Shown: positions 40,023-47,703 of the stretch, piece after piece | Layout of the letters: each line of letters starts with the position of its first letter | How positions within the stretch are numbered: the first letter of the stretch is position 1 | Source: Micromonospora sp. WMMD812 | Lineage (GTDB): Bacteria; Actinomycetota; Actinomycetes; Mycobacteriales; Micromonosporaceae | DNA length: 64,000 nt | Assembly: GCF_027497215.1 (NCBI RefSeq) | Contig: NZ_CP114904.1 | Span: forward strand, 1,798,001 to 1,862,000 | Reading direction: 5' to 3' | Translations under genes and position numbers: made by a program | Notes under the pieces: model-generated | Databases searched by the model: none | What the model saw: the letters and a program-made list of their open reading frames with translations, nothing else | Told to the model about the DNA's origin: nothing

Positions 40023-43000
40023 TCATGACCAGGTAGCCGAGGTGGGGCGCTGGGCCGGCCGATCGGATTCCAGCCCGGCGAGCCGGTCGTTGATCTCACG
40101 CACCATGACGGCCGCTCCGGCCCGGGCGGCGATCTCGAGGGCGCGCTGCCAGGCGACCCGAGCAGCCTCGACGTCGGCGACCTGCTCGCCCGCCCGTGCC
40201 AGGTCCATCAGAGCGGCGACGTGCGCCGTCGGATTGCCCGCCAGGTCATCCACCACCTGCGCGATCTCCGTTCGCGCACGTTCCGGGTCGCCGGCCATGA
40301 GGCTCAGCCGGCCCTGTGCGCAGCGGGCGTAAGCCAGATAGAGCGGAATGTTCGTCTCTTGCGCCCGCTCCAGCGCGACGCGGACGTAGGCGGTGGCCTC
40401 GGCGAGCCGCGCCGCTCCCGCGAGCGTCGCGGCCAGTTCGCTCAGCAGAACCACCTCCCCCAGCCGGTCGCGGTGCTGGCGGACCAGTCGCAGCCCCTCC
40501 AGGTACGCCGCCCAGGCCTCGTCCACCTCGCCGCGTTGGTCGTGCCATCTGGCCAACCCTCGTAGGCCGAACGCGAGTGGCCGGGTCTCGGCGGCGGTGC
40601 GGAGCAGTGCGACGCTGCGCGCCAGCGTCGGGCCGGCGGCCGGGTCTCCCTCCTGCATCTGGAGCATGCCGAGTCGCGTCAGTTTGGCCCCGGTCGACGC
40701 GTCGTCCCCGGCCTCCAGGTAGAGGTCTATCGACCTGACGAGGGCGGCGCGTGCTTCCGCCCTGTTCCCCAGCGCCTCGTGCACCTGGTGCTCCACCCCG
40801 GCGATCTCCGCGCAGAGCCAGGGCTGCCTCAGGCTCGCACCGGTCTCGCCGGCCGACGTGATCTGCCGAAGCGCGCCGTGCAGGTCGTTGCGGACCAGGT
40901 AGGCGAACGCCACACACGTCCGCATCCTGGCGATACCCTCGCGATGCCCGCGGCGCTCCGCCGCCGCGAGTCCCACCTCGGTCACCCGGGTCAGCTCGTC
41001 CAGGTGCCCGTCGACGTGGAGGTAGTAGTCGCAGTGCCAGGCCAGGGCCCAGGCGTAATCCTCCAGCCCGGCCGTCTCGGCAGCCTGGTCGACGAGGGCG
41101 GACAGCGAGAGTCGCTCGGCGCCGAACCAGGCCTGGGGATCCCGACGGTGCACCTCGGTGACGACCGGCCACCGGGGTAGGTCGGCGACGATCCGGGCCT
41201 GCTCCTCCTGGCTGAACGCCACCCGGGCCTGCTCGGTCAGAGTCAGCCAGGCCGCGAAGACCCGACGCAGCAGCCGTACACGTTCGTCCGCCGGCTCCTC
41301 CGCTGTCGCCCGCTCTCGGGCGAAGACCCGTACCAGATCGTGGATCCGGTACCGCGGTTGGCCGGCCTCGTCGGGACCCGTCACCTCGACGAGGTTGGCC
41401 TCGACCAGGCCGGCCAGACCGGCGTCGGCGGCCCTGTCGTCCTCGATCAGTACGCTGACCAGCCACGGCGGCGCGTCGGCGAGGTCCAGCGCCGCGAGCC
41501 GGCGTAACACCCGACGGGCCGGTTCGTCGAGTGCGACGTACGCGGAATGGAACGCGGCCCGGACGCTGCGGTCCGCGCGGGTGAGATGGTCGAGGCGGTG
41601 CGACAGCTCGCCGAGCTGGTTCGCCATCTGTCGCAGGCTCAGCAGGTCCGGTACGGCGAGCCGCGCCCCGACTATCCGCACGGCCAGTGGCAGCAGTCCG
41701 CAGTGGTTGACGATGGCCGACGCCGAGTCCGCTTCGGCGGCCAGCCGCTCGGTGCCGATCATGCGGGCGAGCAGCCGCAGCGCTTCGGGTTCCGGCAGGG
41801 GGCGCAGCCGCAGTTGGAGGGCGCCGTCGAGGTCGACGAGGGCGCGTCGGCTCGTGACGAGGACGAGTGCGTCGATCCCGGGCAGCAGGGGACGCACCTG
41901 AGCCGCGGTCGCCGCGTCGTCCAGCAGCAACAGGCAGGGCCGGTCGGCCACCGTCGCCCGAAACAGCGCGGCCCGTTCCGCCAGGTCTGTCGGTGTCTCC
42001 ACGCCCGGCACTCCGAGGGACCGCAGCAGACGTCCGAGCACCTCGACGGGCGCGAGCGGCCGCTCGTGTCCACTCAGGTCGACGTAGAGCTGAGCGCCCG
42101 GGTACTGCCCGCCGAGTTGGTGCGCGATCCGGATGGCCAGCGAGGTCTTCCCCACTCCGGGCAGGCCGCTGATCGCCACCACGGCGACCTTCGGCCGTTC
42201 CGGCAACCACCGGAGAACGGCCGCCACCTCCGACTGCCGGCCGACGAAGTCGGCGAGCTGGGCCGGCAGCATCTGGGGCGGGGAGCGCCGAGCTTCGTCC
42301 GCGGGCGGCGGAGGTGCGGGCGTCCCGGCGGCAACACTCGGGACGGGGTCGCCGTCCGCCGTCCCGTTCGGGAGGGGCGGCCCCGCCTTCGGCGTAGGCG
42401 GCCGGTCCGCCGGCCCGGGCCCGGCGTCGATCGCCGGTCCGACGCCGTCGCGGGCAGCCGGGCCGGCACGCAGGCTCGGATCGTTGCGGAGGATCAGGTC
42501 GCGAAGTCGGACGAGCTCCGGGGTGGGGTCGACCCCGAGCTCCTCCGCCAGTTGGCGGCGGAGCTGATCGAAACGGTCCAGGGCCTCGCGCTGCCGGTCC
42601 GCCAGGTAGAGGGCACGCATGAGCCGACCGACCAACGGCTCACGCCACGGGTACGCCTCGACGAGTTCGAGCAGGCCGCCGATCACCTGGTCGTACCGGC
42701 CGAGGCTCAGTTCGAGGTCGAGGCACCGCTCGATCACGGCCATCCGTCGCTCGTCGAGGCGCTGGGCAGCGGCCGCCAACGCCGGGGTACGCAGGCCGTC
42801 CAGTGCCGGACCTCGCCAGAGTGCCAGTGCCTTCCTCAGCATGGTCACCGCCGCCTGTGTCGTCCCGCTGTCCACGTGCCCGCCGGCCTGCCGCACCCAC
42901 GCCTCGAAGACATCCAGATCGAGCTGGCCGTCGGCGACCCTCAGCAGGTACCCGGAGCCCCGGGTGTCGATCACCTCGTCCGGCAGCCCGGCCTGGCGCA

Positions 43001-43226
43001 TCGCCCGCCGCACGGCGGCGACCCGGTTGCGCACCTGTACGTCGGCACTGGACGGCGGGTCGTCGCCCCAGGCGGCGTCCACGAGCCGGGAGACCGGCAC
43101 CAGCCGGTTGGCCTCCAGCAGCAGCAGGGCCAGCATGGCCTGGCTGCGCGGTCCGCCGACGCGCACGGCCCGGTCGGCCACCCGAACCTCCACCGGACCG
43201 AGCAGCCGGAACATCACCTCTGGCAC
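40023..43226 (-). CDS. SARP-family regulator, AfsR-like (SARP + NB-ARC + TPR)
   Basis: 1067 residues. OmpR-type winged helix at 5-95 (LLGPVEVRVADRAVRVGGPR, SGYLLRVADGQLDLDVFEAW), bacterial activator domain (BTAD) at about 100-245, a Pro-rich linker to 320, then an NB-ARC ATPase: Walker A ISGLPGVGKTSLAIRIAHQL at 353-372 and Walker B CLLLLDDAATA. TPR repeats fill the C-terminus. AfsR-like SARPs activate secondary-metabolite clusters by binding direct heptamer repeats. It lies 132 bp downstream of the M50 gene on the same strand and is probably its local regulator. Start GTG 43226 (MPEV) or the ATG four codons later. Confidence 0.92.
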   Translation of the reverse strand: MPEVMFRLLGPVEVRVADRAVRVGGPRSQAMLALLLLEANRLVPVSRLVDAAWGDDPPSSADVQVRNRVAAVRRAMRQAGLPDEVIDTRGSGYLLRVADGQLDLDVFEAWVRQAGGHVDSGTTQAAVTMLRKALALWRGPALDGLRTPALAAAAQRLDERRMAVIERCLDLELSLGRYDQVIGGLLELVEAYPWREPLVGRLMRALYLADRQREALDRFDQLRRQLAEELGVDPTPELVRLRDLILRNDPSLRAGPAARDGVGPAIDAGPGPADRPPTPKAGPPLPNGTADGDPVPSVAAGTPAPPPPADEARRSPPQMLPAQLADFVGRQSEVAAVLRWLPERPKVAVVAISGLPGVGKTSLAIRIAHQLGGQYPGAQLYVDLSGHERPLAPVEVLGRLLRSLGVPGVETPTDLAERAALFRATVADRPCLLLLDDAATAAQVRPLLPGIDALVLVTSRRALVDLDGALQLRLRPLPEPEALRLLARMIGTERLAAEADSASAIVNHCGLLPLAVRIVGARLAVPDLLSLRQMANQLGELSHRLDHLTRADRSVRAAFHSAYVALDEPARRVLRRLAALDLADAPPWLVSVLIEDDRAADAGLAGLVEANLVEVTGPDEAGQPRYRIHDLVRVFARERATAEEPADERVRLLRRVFAAWLTLTEQARVAFSQEEQARIVADLPRWPVVTEVHRRDPQAWFGAERLSLSALVDQAAETAGLEDYAWALAWHCDYYLHVDGHLDELTRVTEVGLAAAERRGHREGIARMRTCVAFAYLVRNDLHGALRQITSAGETGASLRQPWLCAEIAGVEHQVHEALGNRAEARAALVRSIDLYLEAGDDASTGAKLTRLGMLQMQEGDPAAGPTLARSVALLRTAAETRPLAFGLRGLARWHDQRGEVDEAWAAYLEGLRLVRQHRDRLGEVVLLSELAATLAGAARLAEATAYVRVALERAQETNIPLYLAYARCAQGRLSLMAGDPERARTEIAQVVDDLAGNPTAHVAALMDLARAGEQVADVEAARVAWQRALEIAARAGAAVMVREINDRLAGLESDRPAQRPTSATWS

Positions 43227-43358: not shown

Positions 43359-44666
43359 TCAGCCCACGGGTGTGGAAGAGGCTGCCATGGCATCCGGGGA
43401 TGCGTTCGCCCGCCGCCGAAGATGGCGGCGGCAGAAGGTCACCAGGAAGATCACCTGCAACGTGCCTTCGACGGCCAGAACGAGTACGCCGTCCACGGCG
43501 GCCAGCGCGCTGCCACCGGTCAGCCCGGCGGCCACCACGGAGCCGGCCTGGACCAGCACGTGCAGCAGGATCGGAATCCCGAATCCCACAAAGCTCGCGA
43601 GCGCGATCGTGCTGCCGAGCACAACCGCCACGGAGTAGATCCGTACCGCCCGGCGCTCCTGCGGGAGCAGCTGCGCGCTCGGGTCGGTCAGGACCGCCAC
43701 GGTTCGGCCGGGCAGCACCGCGCGGGCGGACCGGCGCACCACGTACCGGGCGTAAGCGAGGCCGTCGTGGAACAGGTTGCGGCACCGCAGCAGGTCGAGC
43801 AGGACGAAGTAGAGGTCGGTGCGCATGTAGACGTGCAGTTGCAGCGCCATCGACATGACGATCACGACCACCAGGGCGGCCAGTAGGCCGTGGACCACCG
43901 GCGGCGATCCGGCATACGCGATCAGCAGCAGCGCGGCGCAGACGACGGCGAGGTCCCAGAGCAGGCCGCTGAGGTAGACCCGGTACCGGTACCGACGCGG
44001 CGTGGACCAGATCGCGGTCACGTCCGTCTCCAGCACCAGGTGGTGCAGCCGGGTGGCGAAGCGGATCCGGGCCGGCGCGCCCAGCGACCGGGCCGCCACC
44101 AAATGGCTCAGCTCGTGGAACGTCGCCGCCACCGAGAAGAGCACGGTGTTGACGAGGACGGCGAGCCCGACGTAGTCGGTCCAGAAGAAGTCCCGGTACG
44201 TGGGCAGCAGCTCGGGACGGCGCACCACGGTGATCAGGGTCGCCGCGACCAGCATCAGATAGCCCAGCTTCGCCGTGCGCCCGTAGAGCCAGCTCACGTG
44301 CGGGGCCCGCAGACGAGGCAGGTGCGGGCGGAGCTGACGGTAGGGGTCGACGATCGGCCGACCGTCGACGGCTGCGACCAGGCCCGCCTCACGGAGGGCC
44401 ACCACCAGGTCGAGGAGGTCGACGTCGACGTCGTGCTCGTCGGCGAGCCGGCGCTCGGCCACGCCGATCGGCACCCCCGAGTCGAGCAACGCGATGGCCA
44501 CGGCGCCGATCGCCGGCAGCTCCACGAACTCCCCAGCCTCCGGTCGTCCCATGACGACCGTGTCGGGATCGTCGTCGGACGATCGGACCCGCAGCGGGTG
44601 GAACCGGACCAGGCTGTCGACCGCCACGGGAATTTCCGGCGCCGCCGCTGTCTCCGTCACGGCCAC
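43359..44666 (-). CDS. M50-family membrane metalloprotease with PqqD-like N-terminus
   Basis: 435 residues. The first 110 residues look like a PqqD/winged-helix peptide-binding domain (LPAIGAVAIALLDSGVPIGV, DVDVDLLDLVVALREAGLVA), then about six membrane helices from residue 134. HELSH at 184-188 (VAATFHELSHLVAARSLGAP) is the HExxH zinc motif of site-2-type proteases, close to YydH-like peptide zinc metalloproteases of RiPP loci. A late MALQLHVYMRTDLYFVLLDL carries the probable third ligand Asp. It starts six bases after the stop of the ThiF gene, so the two are coupled. Likely role: trimming or exporting a modified peptide. Confidence 0.85.
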   Translation of the reverse strand: MAVTETAAAPEIPVAVDSLVRFHPLRVRSSDDDPDTVVMGRPEAGEFVELPAIGAVAIALLDSGVPIGVAERRLADEHDVDVDLLDLVVALREAGLVAAVDGRPIVDPYRQLRPHLPRLRAPHVSWLYGRTAKLGYLMLVAATLITVVRRPELLPTYRDFFWTDYVGLAVLVNTVLFSVAATFHELSHLVAARSLGAPARIRFATRLHHLVLETDVTAIWSTPRRYRYRVYLSGLLWDLAVVCAALLLIAYAGSPPVVHGLLAALVVVIVMSMALQLHVYMRTDLYFVLLDLLRCRNLFHDGLAYARYVVRRSARAVLPGRTVAVLTDPSAQLLPQERRAVRIYSVAVVLGSTIALASFVGFGIPILLHVLVQAGSVVAAGLTGGSALAAVDGVLVLAVEGTLQVIFLVTFCRRHLRRRANASPDAMAASSTPVG

Positions 44667-44672
44667 CTCGCC

Positions 44673-45785
44673 TCAGGTCCGGCTCTCGGATCGCGACCCG
44701 CAGGAGGGGCAGTCGGAGTCGTGCGGAACGTCCACGAAGTACTGGTGGTCCCAGCGTGCCACGCTCTGGTGGTAGACCCGCCCGGCGACCTGCTGAGGTA
44801 GCCCGGCAAGGTGGTAGAGCACCTCCAGCGCGCACAGGTGGCCGGTGATGTTGGCGCTCGCCGCGATGACCGCATTCGGTCTCGGCACGCCGATCAGCGG
44901 CCTACCGTCGGTGTGGAACTCGTGCTTGCCCGGTCGGCGGCTCAGGCAGGTGTAGCAGCCGGTCCGGTACGGCAGGAACGAGCCGACGACGGTCATCGGA
45001 CCGGTGTAGAGAGCCATGAACCACGGAACCCGGGTGCGCAGCGCGGCCTCGTTGGTCCAGCTCTGGATGAGCTGCACGGGCTTGTCGGCGCAGAGTACGA
45101 AGGCGTCGCAGCCGTCCATCAGCGCGGCGACGTCGGCGGCGGAGCGCACCTCGCGCTCCTCTCCGGTGACGGCGACCTGTGAGTTCATCGCCCGTAGCCG
45201 CTCGACCGCGACATTCACCTTCGGCTGGCCGACGTCGCTCTCGGTGTAGAGCAGTTGGCGGGTCAGGTTCGGCTGGTCCACCACGTCGAAGTCGACGCAG
45301 TGCAGACCTCCGACGCCACTGGCGACGAGGCCGGCGGCGACCGCCGTACCCGTACCGCCGAGGCCGAGCAGGCCCACCCGGGCCTGCCCTATCCGGGCCT
45401 GGGCGGCATACGGCGACGCACGCGGGGTGGTGTCGATCCAGGAGAAGAAGTGACGCGCCCGGTCGTATCGTTCGGCGGCCTCGGGACTGAAGCCGGACGG
45501 TAACGGCGCGGCGGCGTCCTCGATGAACCCCTGTCCGATCAGCTGCTCCACCGCCGCACGGACGCTCTCCTCGGACAGACCCGGGTGGGTGACGGCGAGG
45601 TCCCTGGACACCTCCGCCAGGTCCCGGGTGCCGTCCAGCAACGTCAGGAGCCGGGCTACGGTGCCGTCCTCGTCGTCCTGGATCTCGGCGGCGACGCCGT
45701 ACTGCATCAGGCCGATCGTCAGTCGATTTCCGGGCAAGGTGTACGGCTCGTGGACAAGCTTGACGCGTGGTCGGAGCATGCGCAT
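44673..45785 (-). CDS. E1-like ThiF/HesA adenylyltransferase with RRE-like N-terminus (cyclodehydratase-type)
   Basis: 370 residues. The first 95 form a winged-helix/RRE-like domain (IQDDEDGTVARLLTLLDGTR, SEESVRAAVEQLIGQGF). The E1 domain follows: ATP loop VGLLGLGGTGTAVAAGLVAS at 138-157, VDFDVVDQPNLTRQLLY with catalytic NxxRQ, and zinc pairs CYTC (277-280) and CPSC near the end. It matches the Ocin-ThiF group of RiPP maturation proteins, which normally present leader peptides to a YcaO; no YcaO gene is in the window. ATG 45785 has GAGGT eight bases before it; ATG 45863 would add RRCSGCG and a HC pair but lacks a ribosome site. Confidence 0.85.
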   Translation of the reverse strand: MRMLRPRVKLVHEPYTLPGNRLTIGLMQYGVAAEIQDDEDGTVARLLTLLDGTRDLAEVSRDLAVTHPGLSEESVRAAVEQLIGQGFIEDAAAPLPSGFSPEAAERYDRARHFFSWIDTTPRASPYAAQARIGQARVGLLGLGGTGTAVAAGLVASGVGGLHCVDFDVVDQPNLTRQLLYTESDVGQPKVNVAVERLRAMNSQVAVTGEEREVRSAADVAALMDGCDAFVLCADKPVQLIQSWTNEAALRTRVPWFMALYTGPMTVVGSFLPYRTGCYTCLSRRPGKHEFHTDGRPLIGVPRPNAVIAASANITGHLCALEVLYHLAGLPQQVAGRVYHQSVARWDHQYFVDVPHDSDCPSCGSRSESRT

Positions 45786-45886
45786 CCGCGCGACCTCACA
45801 ATGCTCGCTGGATCGGGTGGGGCCGCAGCCGGAGCAGCGGCGGGCGCCCAGGATGACCGGCATGCCGGTGAACGCGGAGACGGGAA

Positions 45887-45933
45887 GGCACTCCGGTCGC
45901 CACCCCCGCTGAGGTGCCGGCGACCGGAGTGCC
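45887..45933 (-). terminator. Hairpin between precursor peptide and ThiF genes
   Basis: Perfect 15-bp inverted repeat GGCACTCCGGTCGCC (45887-45901 against 45919-45933) with a 17-base loop, 9 bases after the stop of the small peptide gene. This position fits a partial terminator that raises precursor transcript above the enzyme genes, a usual design in RiPP operons. Confidence 0.8.
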
Positions 45934-45942
45934 GGGGCGTGG

Positions 45943-46050
45943 TCAGGCGCCGTTGCCCTCGCGGATGACCGTCGTCTCCAGCCGCTCCAGCTTGCGCACC
46001 TTGAGCACGAGCTTCTTCGTCGGGGCCTGCTCGACCTTGGCCTTCTCCAC
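45943..46050 (-). CDS. Putative RiPP-type precursor peptide, 35 residues
   Basis: A GTG-started 35-codon frame with an excellent ribosome site (CGAGGAGGAAGA immediately upstream). The peptide is charged and lacks Cys: N-terminal VEKAKVEQAPTKKLVLK, then VRKLERLETTVIREGNGA and TGA. The leader-like first part is helical and Lys/Glu-rich; the tail with Thr-Thr, Glu, Asn and Gly would be the core. It is the first gene of a same-strand group with the ThiF and M50 genes and is followed by a strong hairpin. No known precursor family is recognised. The coding call rests on ribosome site, position and context. Confidence 0.7.
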   Translation of the reverse strand: MEKAKVEQAPTKKLVLKVRKLERLETTVIREGNGA

Positions 46051-46198
46051 TCTTCCTCCTCGAGCCGCATGGTTTCCGTCACCCGGAACGTGATCTCACC
46101 CTGTCGAGCGCCGTCACCACCCGATCACAGATCGATCATCAATCTCGGCCTGGGACGGTCGCTGGAGCGGCTGCTCGGGATGAGCGGTCCCTGGATGG

Positions 46199-46660
46199 CT
46201 ACCGGGTCGGTCCCGCATCGGTGACGTTCAGTGGTCTTTCGAAGAACGTCTCGAGGACGACGATGGTCTGTGTGCCGGTAACACCGTTGACGTCGAACAC
46301 GCGGCGCAGCACGGCCTGCAGCTGTTCCGGGGTCGAGGTGCGGATCTTCACGAGCAGCGACGCGGACCCGGCGATGATGTGGGCCTCCTGGATCTCGGGG
46401 ATGGCTGCGAGCGCGTCCCGCGTCGGTGGGTCGCCCATCCAGGCGTTGGACTGCAGCATGACGAACGAGAGCACGCCGCGCCCGACCGCGGTTGGTTCCA
46501 CGTCGATGGTCGTACGTCGGATGACCCCGCGTTCGCGCAGCTTGCGTACCCGCTCGTGGGCTGACCCCGCCGACAGCCCCACCGCCTTGCCGAGGGCCGC
46601 GTACGGCTGCGTGGCGTCGGCCTGCAACTCCGCCAGCAGCGCCCGGTCTACATCGTCCAC
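46199..46660 (-). CDS. Lrp/AsnC-family transcriptional regulator
   Basis: 153 residues. AsnC-type helix-turn-helix at about 5-55 (ELQADATQPYAALGKAVGLS, SAHERVRKLRERGVIRRTTI) and the RAM ligand-binding domain (AAIPEIQEAHIIAGSASLLV, TQTIVVLETFFERPLNV). It senses amino acids or similar small molecules. GTG 46660 is chosen because AAGGA lies nine bases upstream; a TTG at 46669 abuts that sequence. The gene is divergent from the SMP-30 gene at 46771 across a 110-bp AT-richer region, and probably controls it. Confidence 0.9.
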   Translation of the reverse strand: MDDVDRALLAELQADATQPYAALGKAVGLSAGSAHERVRKLRERGVIRRTTIDVEPTAVGRGVLSFVMLQSNAWMGDPPTRDALAAIPEIQEAHIIAGSASLLVKIRTSTPEQLQAVLRRVFDVNGVTGTQTIVVLETFFERPLNVTDAGPTR

Positions 46661-46770
46661 AGCGCTCAATCCTTAGATGTGAATCAGCTGACTTACGTGT
46701 TGACCATACCAGGTTCGGTGGTGTTAGCGTTCTGCCGAATGCACGTCAGCTCATGCTGAGGAGGCCCGTG

Positions 46771-47703
46771 GTGACGGCGACCGTCCCCGCCCAGTTCCAG
46801 GTGCTCGACGAACGCTTCCGGTACGTCAACGGCGACTTCGTCCTCGAACGCCTACACACCGGCGCACGCAAGTCCGAGGGCCCGGCGTACTTCCCGGCCG
46901 GGCGCTACCTGGTGTGGAGCGACATTCCCAACGACCGGCTGCTGCGCTGGGACGAGACCACCGGCGCCGTCGGTGTCTTCCGGCACCACTCCGGCTACGC
47001 CAACGGCAACACCGTCGATCGGCAGGGCCGGCTGATCACCTGCGAGCAGGGCAACCGACGGGTCACCCGCACCGAGCACGACGGCACGGTCACCGTGCTG
47101 GCCGACCGCTACCAGGGCAAGCGGCTCAACAGCCCCAACGACGTGGTCGTGCGGGCGGACGGCACGATCTGGTTCACCGACCCGATCTACGGCATCTTCA
47201 GCGACTACGAGGGAAACAAGGGCGACAGCGAGTTCGACGGCGCCTGCTACGTGTTCCGCCTCGACCCGGCCACCGGTGAGCTGCGGGTGGTCGCCGAGGA
47301 CTTCTGCCGGCCCAACGGCCTGGCCTTCTCCCCCGACGAGCAGCGACTCTTCATCGCGGACACCCGGCAGGAACCCAGCCACATCCGCGTCTTCGACGTC
47401 ACCGCCGACGGCGACCTGGCCGGTGGGAAGATCTTCGCCGAATGCGACAACGGACGCTTCGACGGCCTCCGGTTGGACGACGCCGGGCGGGTCTGGGCCG
47501 CCGCCTGGGACGGCGTGCACTGCTTCGACCCCGACGGCACCCTGATCGGCAAGCTCCTGCTGCCCGAGTCCGTCGCCAACCTCACCTTCGGCGGGCCCCA
47601 GCGCAACCACCTCTTCGTCACCGCGGGGACCAGCGTGTACACGCTGCGGGTCACCGTCAACGGCGCCCGCTATCCCGAGGGCAGTGGAGTCGACCGGCCG
47701 TGA
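46771..47703 (+). CDS. SMP-30/gluconolactonase-family beta-propeller hydrolase
   Basis: 310 residues of the SMP-30/LRE family: metal-ligand Glu in RKSEGPAYFPAGRYLVWSDI, GYANGNTVDRQGRLITCEQG, the conserved RLNSPNDVVVRADGTIWFTD with catalytic Asn, RPNGLAFSPDEQRLFIADT with Asn, and the late RFDGLRLDDAGRVWAAAWDG with Asp. These metal-dependent lactonases open sugar lactones. The start is GTG 46771 with GGAGG six bases ahead; GTG 46768 is an alternative. Its stop overlaps the NadE start by four bases, so both are coupled, and the divergent Lrp protein probably regulates them. Confidence 0.9.
   Translation: MTATVPAQFQVLDERFRYVNGDFVLERLHTGARKSEGPAYFPAGRYLVWSDIPNDRLLRWDETTGAVGVFRHHSGYANGNTVDRQGRLITCEQGNRRVTRTEHDGTVTVLADRYQGKRLNSPNDVVVRADGTIWFTDPIYGIFSDYEGNKGDSEFDGACYVFRLDPATGELRVVAEDFCRPNGLAFSPDEQRLFIADTRQEPSHIRVFDVTADGDLAGGKIFAECDNGRFDGLRLDDAGRVWAAAWDGVHCFDPDGTLIGKLLLPESVANLTFGGPQRNHLFVTAGTSVYTLRVTVNGARYPEGSGVDRP

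Follow-up and report, generated by a model that had tools for sequence, protein, structure and literature searches.

A probable ribosomal peptide cassette built on a ThiF-like adenylyltransferase and an M50 protease in Micromonospora sp. WMMD812

Genes and features of the locus

We examined a 64,000-nucleotide stretch of Micromonospora sp. WMMD812 (the window; contig NZ_CP114904.1, positions 1,798,001 to 1,862,000), whose genome is a single contig of 7.13 Mb. A short peptide gene, a gene for a ThiF-like protein and a gene for an M50 protease lie there in succession on the minus strand. The original prediction, made from the sequence alone, had read these genes as a minimal locus for a ribosomally synthesised and post-translationally modified peptide (RiPP), with an N-terminus like a RiPP recognition element (RRE) on the ThiF protein, a PqqD-like N-terminus on the protease and a regulator of the Streptomyces antibiotic regulatory protein (SARP) type alongside, and all of these components are present. 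The features of the cassette are as follows, in the order of transcription.

46055..46059, minus strand: GGAGG core of the ribosome binding site of the precursor gene (sequence)
45943..46050, minus strand: precursor peptide gene of 35 codons that starts with GTG (homologous frames found at 62 of 69 distinct loci)
45970..45978, minus strand: codons for the conserved E25-T26-T27 at the boundary of leader and tail (alignment; 135 distinct peptides)
45887..45933, minus strand: hairpin with a 15-bp perfect stem and a 17-nt loop, between the precursor and ThiF genes (sequence, folding)
44673..45785, minus strand: ThiF-like adenylyltransferase, 370 aa (Pfam ThiF, 8.1e-37; closest solved relative MccB)
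45516..45785, minus strand: RRE (winged helix) of the ThiF protein, residues 1-90 (AF2 model)
44694..45497, minus strand: E1-type adenylation domain with four invariant Cys, residues 97-364 (alignment, structure comparison)
43359..44666, minus strand: M50 membrane metalloprotease, 435 aa (HExxH; SpoIVFB and RseP folds)
44367..44615, minus strand: RRE of the M50 protein, residues 18-100
44103..44117, minus strand: HELSH zinc site of the protease (sequence, alignment)

The predicted small frame runs from 46050 to 45943, has a GAGGAGG ribosome site 4 nt upstream of its GTG, and encodes a Cys-free peptide that terminates in LERLETTVIREGNGA. The predicted hairpin was likewise found, with inverted repeat arms at 45887-45901 and 45919-45933, 9 nt past the precursor stop. 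The entire 157-nt gap between the precursor and ThiF genes has a folding energy of -82.6 kcal/mol, and the corresponding gap is unusually folded in 34 of 40 loci measured (z <= -2, 60 shuffles). The hairpin is likely to be an attenuator or an mRNA stabiliser, and the recurrence of unusual folding fits an attenuator that maintains an excess of precursor.

Conservation of the precursor and of the cassette

Relatives of the ThiF protein were collected at 69 distinct loci, comprising the window, 12 loci on named genome contigs, 39 from a family search and 17 from a class search, with duplicates (L044, L127) removed and one place per genome search (G245, G1078) left out. A short homologous frame accompanies the cassette at 62 of these loci, upstream of ThiF at 42 and downstream of ThiF or M50 at 20; 60 were recovered by one pattern (duplicate removed), while L132 and L139 required a leader-only pattern because the first demanded a hydrophobic residue before E-T. 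Outside cassettes the precursor motif occurred three times in 1.34 Mb of fetched DNA, and two of these occurrences resemble extra precursors. Since the peptide is conserved at so many loci and its motif is rare elsewhere, the small frame is more than a chance one and is a gene; its proposed role as the precursor gene is supported. Several loci hold multiple precursors: two at L068, three at L077 (whose cassette also has two ThiF genes), and one additional each at L129 and L130. A database search returned 190 proteins at E <= 10, with ETT in all 120 listed, although a search of this kind favours sequences that share such words; where these had names they were almost always hypothetical or uncharacterised proteins. 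A plasmid search with the peptide gave no match, and no NCBIfam model matched the window's precursor or the seven others tried.

Among 32 aligned precursors of 22-41 aa, M1, L21, E25 and T26 are invariant. A larger set of 135 distinct peptides was gathered with a pattern that imposed L at -4, E at 0 and T or S at +1, and in this set T occupies +1 in all 135, T occupies +2 in 131 and R occupies -6 in 131. The leader strand is conserved and the tail variable, frequently so even among close relatives, with the tails of the window and L003 being identical. Freedom from Cys, which had been remarked on in the window's peptide, is a property of that tail and not of the family, as 51 of the 135 peptides carry Cys in E-T-T or the tail. 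From 129 distinct tails we chose 57 dissimilar ones (fewer than 50% of positions identical when aligned at the C-terminal end). Gly is the last residue in 33 of these (58%, vs 14% at other positions), and the last residue is small in 93% (vs 56% elsewhere); no permutation out of 10,000 attained this bias, shared ancestry being uncorrected for. The precursor so has two constrained places, the boundary E-T and the free C-terminus.

Across 52 loci we found ThiF at 50 (with a rough gene caller), M50 at 46, a SARP-type regulator at 20 and a DUF3105 membrane protein at 12. No gene besides ThiF and M50 recurs in more than 20 of the 52, and no exporter gene was seen recurring widely around the cassettes, most neighbours in both cases being without annotation. 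Relatives of the ThiF protein occur in at least 39 of 354 genomes of the source organism's family, presumably Micromonosporaceae (E <= 1e-40), at least 13 of 394 of its class (E <= 1e-70) and, at full length, at least 2 of 396 of its phylum, the window's genome being included each time; these counts are lower bounds, about five candidates at most having been scored per genome.

The two enzymes

We place the start of the ThiF protein at 45785 (MRMLRPRVK), since the N-termini of most aligned relatives fall only a few residues from this point; a longer frame of 469 aa was rejected, as its N-terminal extension is missing in relatives. The predicted RRE is well modelled (pLDDT 90.7) and participates in structural alignments that start at model residue 4 for MccB and residue 9 for PaaA. 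MccB is the best structural match, over the full length (E 1e-24), and TruD is weaker (E 1.4e-15); PaaA (Z 29.3) scores much like MoeB (29.6) and ThiF (29.5), the latter two covering the second domain only. R176, K189 and D234 are invariant in 32 of 32 divergent rows and align with the ATP-binding R157, K170 and D214 of MccB (positions counted by hand on the alignment). Housekeeping ThiF/MoeB proteins were set aside: 23 of 25 phylum-level matches align only from profile position >= 89, and were excluded as relatives because they have no RRE. The sole other match to the ThiF protein in the source genome at E <= 0.001 is a ThiF-rhodanese protein, which we take to be MoeZ-like.

Homologues are often labelled thiazole/oxazole-modified microcin (TOMM) precursor leader peptide-binding protein or bacteriocin biosynthesis cyclodehydratase domain protein, labels that are probably misleading for this family. 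With annotations of its genes that read TOMM leader-binding or hypothetical protein, the cassette would probably be misfiled by name-based mining.

The M50 protein has HExxH within a multi-transmembrane fold, as in site-2 proteases, and the motif is invariant in 30 of 30 aligned rows. Foldseek found nothing below E 0.001 for its model; a separate structure alignment matched the SpoIVFB and RseP folds. It carries an RRE at residues 18-100, where a PqqD-like N-terminus had been described. Cleavage and export of an epipeptide are attributed to the M50 protease EpeP, apparently as one of its roles, and pearlin scaffolds are also cut by M50 proteases (PMC10885120).

Comparison with known systems

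By architecture, the locus belongs with the RiPPs made by ThiF-like adenylyltransferases (TLATs): an N-terminal RRE is fused to an E1-like domain, the ATP-binding Arg, Lys and Asp are intact, and a cognate short precursor with a conserved leader is encoded nearby. Two papers (PMC12250964, PMC12150305) describe five chemistries for ThiF-type RiPPs, with a different bond in each, and in the known TLATs the adenylated carboxylate is then attacked by a nucleophile. The carboxylate is C-terminal for MccB, EnfB and IndF and an internal Glu for PaaA; for GrcB both are mentioned (PMC12250964). That the window holds a TLAT-RiPP cassette matured by M50 we consider very probable. The RRE-E1 fusion, the adjoining short precursor gene and the ATP-site residues are shared by microcin C, pantocin A, GRC, enterofaecin and Ind, and some of these also have the (V/I)RK-type leader strand. 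The present family differs from them in leader and tail, in the lack of a fixed C-terminal motif, in its RRE-M50 protease and in its named members, which are all actinomycetes.

Ind of Streptococcus pneumoniae (IndA/IndF/IndP) is likewise a minimal cluster of precursor, ThiF and metalloprotease, and its core opens with Glu followed by Thr-Thr (EDTT in Ind, ETT here). However, Ind has an M16 protease, a transporter and an NWYFI end with a Trp-Ile indolylamide, and no listed tail has a C-terminus of the NWYFI or WWIVI type found in Ind and enterofaecin. Pantocin A (PaaP/PaaA) shares a PaaA-type RRE-ThiF protein and a central triplet that starts with Glu six residues past a leader Arg between variable flanks, but that triplet is Glu-Glu-Asn there and Glu-Thr-Thr here; no recurring counterpart of the PaaB oxygenase or PaaC transporter was seen among neighbours that mostly lack annotation. 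In microcin C (MccA/MccB) the enzyme is the closest solved one, whereas MccA is typically a 7-mer ending in Asn and the precursors here, mostly 22-41 aa long, have a leader and in most cases end in Gly. The window's peptide, with 35 aa and an Ala end, does not resemble MccA, and a peptidyl-nucleotide of the microcin C type was rejected for the family for want of the Asn end. GRC has radical-SAM partners and a Glu-Cys thiolactone, in contrast to a window without radical SAM and a peptide without Cys. Epipeptides (YydF/EpeX) also rely on an M50 intramembrane protease to mature a small peptide, but a radical-SAM epimerase sits beside their precursor, and here ThiF would be the modifying enzyme. 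TOMM and thiopeptide Ocin-ThiF proteins share the RRE with a ThiF-like fold and the name borne by many homologues; they serve a YcaO, whereas here the ATP site is intact and no YcaO is nearby. Finally, E1 conjugation of a ubiquitin-like protein involves a folded beta-grasp partner ending in Gly-Gly, for which the 32 aligned precursors of 22-41 aa are probably too short.

The original prediction had suggested an undescribed RiPP class in which ThiF adenylates the peptide before the protease cuts it. The cassette type stands, and the peptide is most likely adenylated first and cut afterwards. As a principle this has precedents, since MccB, PaaA, EnfB and IndF adenylate their precursors without YcaO or radical SAM. 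The searches made brought up no already named RiPP class for it, and no description of the actinomycete ThiF and M50 precursor family was found in the open-access literature searched, outside which most subscription papers lie. The IndF study filtered 27,400 RRE-ThiF fusions and mentions several unannotated clusters (PMC12150305), and this family may already sit unnamed in its network.

Proposed pathway and alternatives

The order of the genes, their conservation and domains, the intact active sites and the constraint on E-T and on the last residue are shown by the sequences and models compared. The pathway that we infer, from RRE binding and the carboxylate, nucleophile and cut site used through to export and function, would begin with ribosomal synthesis of the 35-aa precursor, probably held above enzyme levels by the hairpin behind its gene. 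The leader strand LVLKVRKLERL would be bound by the RRE of the ThiF protein and, separately, by that of the M50 protein. The ThiF-like enzyme would use ATP to adenylate a carboxylate of the peptide, and the likeliest is that of the C-terminus (as a rule Gly in the family, Ala here); we put this mode, which the C-terminal Gly bias suggests, at even odds or slightly better. The acyl-AMP would be captured inside the peptide, one water being lost overall. As nucleophile we would choose the hydroxyl of the invariant T26 in E-T-T, giving a macrolactone that spans the hypervariable tail, because the Gly bias coincides with an invariant E-T able to supply an acceptor Thr; the macrolactone itself is a tentative proposal, less likely than not. 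The RRE-M50 protease would remove the leader, probably near L24/E25, as the Ind core starts with EDTT and is cleaved just before it, and may assist release of the product through the membrane. For this explanation as a whole, a minimal TLAT-RiPP operon, we estimate a probability of about 0.55. More doubtful is the extension to actinomycete two-enzyme ribosomal depsipeptides, with a C-terminal (mostly Gly) ester to the E-T-T Thr, rings of variable sequence and size, and RRE-guided M50 release.

Several observations weigh against C-terminal adenylation and the cassette as described. The terminal residue varies (G, S, C, R, T, A, D, N or M across the 57 tails, Ala in the window), whereas the ends of EnfA and Ind are described as conserved motifs (PMC12250964), and the tail varies from 9 to 23 residues counted from E. 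The permutations behind the C-terminal bias take no account of shared ancestry. Seven of the 69 ThiF loci lack a recognisable precursor by both patterns (L008, L136, L140-L144) and 10 lack M50 in the stretch examined. Among six close copies (15 pairs), the nonsynonymous proportion (pN) was below the synonymous one (pS) in eight pairs, above it in four and equal in two, one pair being identical, so that no clear trend emerges. Lastly, the Glu of E-T stands at R+6, the distance from the leader Arg at which PaaP carries its modified Glu16, which favours activation of an internal Glu.

This register keeps one alternative close, unlikely as we judge it: ThiF would adenylate the side chain of E25, which would cyclise on a neighbouring backbone amide or a Thr hydroxyl, and the tail would be a follower, which its hypervariability resembles. 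E25 and T26 occur in every aligned precursor, and R19 to E25 spans six residues as in PaaP (F4xxL7xxR10I11, E16-E17-N18). In the published work, PaaP E17A is still dehydrated once, and GrcB joins Glu35, termed both C-terminal and internal, to Cys39 (PMC12250964). Such a reading leaves the bias towards Gly and small residues at the C-terminus unexplained, and the Glu may be invariant for protease recognition, as the bond of IndA does not form at the E-D-T-T start of its core (PMC12150305). Retaining C-terminal activation, the acyl-AMP could instead meet an outside amine, nucleotide or sulfide, so that the peptide would end up amidated, nucleotidylated or thiocarboxylated. A nucleotide is left by MccB, EnfB is able to amidate (PMC12250964, PMC12150305), and the C-terminal Gly of ThiS is a ThiF substrate (PMC12250964). 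We consider this improbable, since the MccA-type Asn is missing (N is last in 2 of the 57 tails) and no gene besides ThiF and M50 is found in more than 20 of the 52 partly annotated loci.

The original prediction had compared the ThiF protein with Ocin-ThiF proteins, under which it would merely dock precursors for a YcaO encoded elsewhere. Many homologues bear the TOMM leader-binding name and YcaO genes lie elsewhere in the genome, at 2.18-2.19 Mb, but the ATP-site residues are invariant across the 32 divergent members, the structure is closest to the catalytic MccB over its full length rather than to TruD, and the window holds none of the three YcaO matches. We rejected this very improbable reading on the intact ATP site and the YcaO-free window. 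Radical SAM was also correctly predicted to be absent, with 17 matches across the genome and none within 1.798-1.862 Mb. LanC gave no match; lanthipeptide dehydratases were not searched for.

Under the preferred reading of C-terminal activation and Thr capture, the chemistry of the cassette would be a further one beside the five that the two papers above describe for ThiF-type RiPPs. A strict leader with a nearly free tail would make the family a natural library served by a compact two-enzyme system. As it bears both signatures, the choice of E1-like RiPP enzymes between C-terminus and internal Glu becomes testable.

Neighbouring genes

Downstream of the protease lies the following gene.

40023..43226, minus strand: SARP/NB-ARC/TPR regulator, linked to the cassette in the window's clade only

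SARP matches number 13 in the source genome, counting this regulator, and only at the six closest loci (the window, L003 and L045-L048) is it the own-genome match that scores highest. We therefore treat it as clade-specific, a true neighbour in those six loci, and rejected it as a general part of the cassette. At other loci different SARP paralogues score higher, and one of the stretches compared, L148, contains two SARP genes, for which the scores were added up.

The DUF3105 membrane protein follows M50 at L053-L064 (12 of the 52 loci) and is tied to longer Cys-containing tails of the PGCRNDVCG type. A DUF6879-type protein lies near the precursor in nine of the 17 class-level loci and at L069 and L072 (one member scanned). 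These loci (L129-L131, L133-L135, L137-L139, L069 and L072) form a divergent subfamily with the precursor after ThiF or M50; L129 and L130 each have two DUF6879-type genes beside their second precursor. L140-L144 encode RRE-ThiF relatives with neither M50 nor a recognisable precursor in the fetched stretch, possibly another TLAT system.

The three YcaO matches of the source genome fall within 13 kb outside the window (G000:C1:2181125-2193856) and are probably a separate azole- or thiopeptide-type cluster. On the other side of the cassette, a gene for an AsnC/Lrp-type regulator (46199-46669, minus strand) is divergent from a gene at 46753-47703 (plus strand) that presumably encodes a gluconolactonase/SMP-30-like protein, and is apparently unrelated to the cassette.
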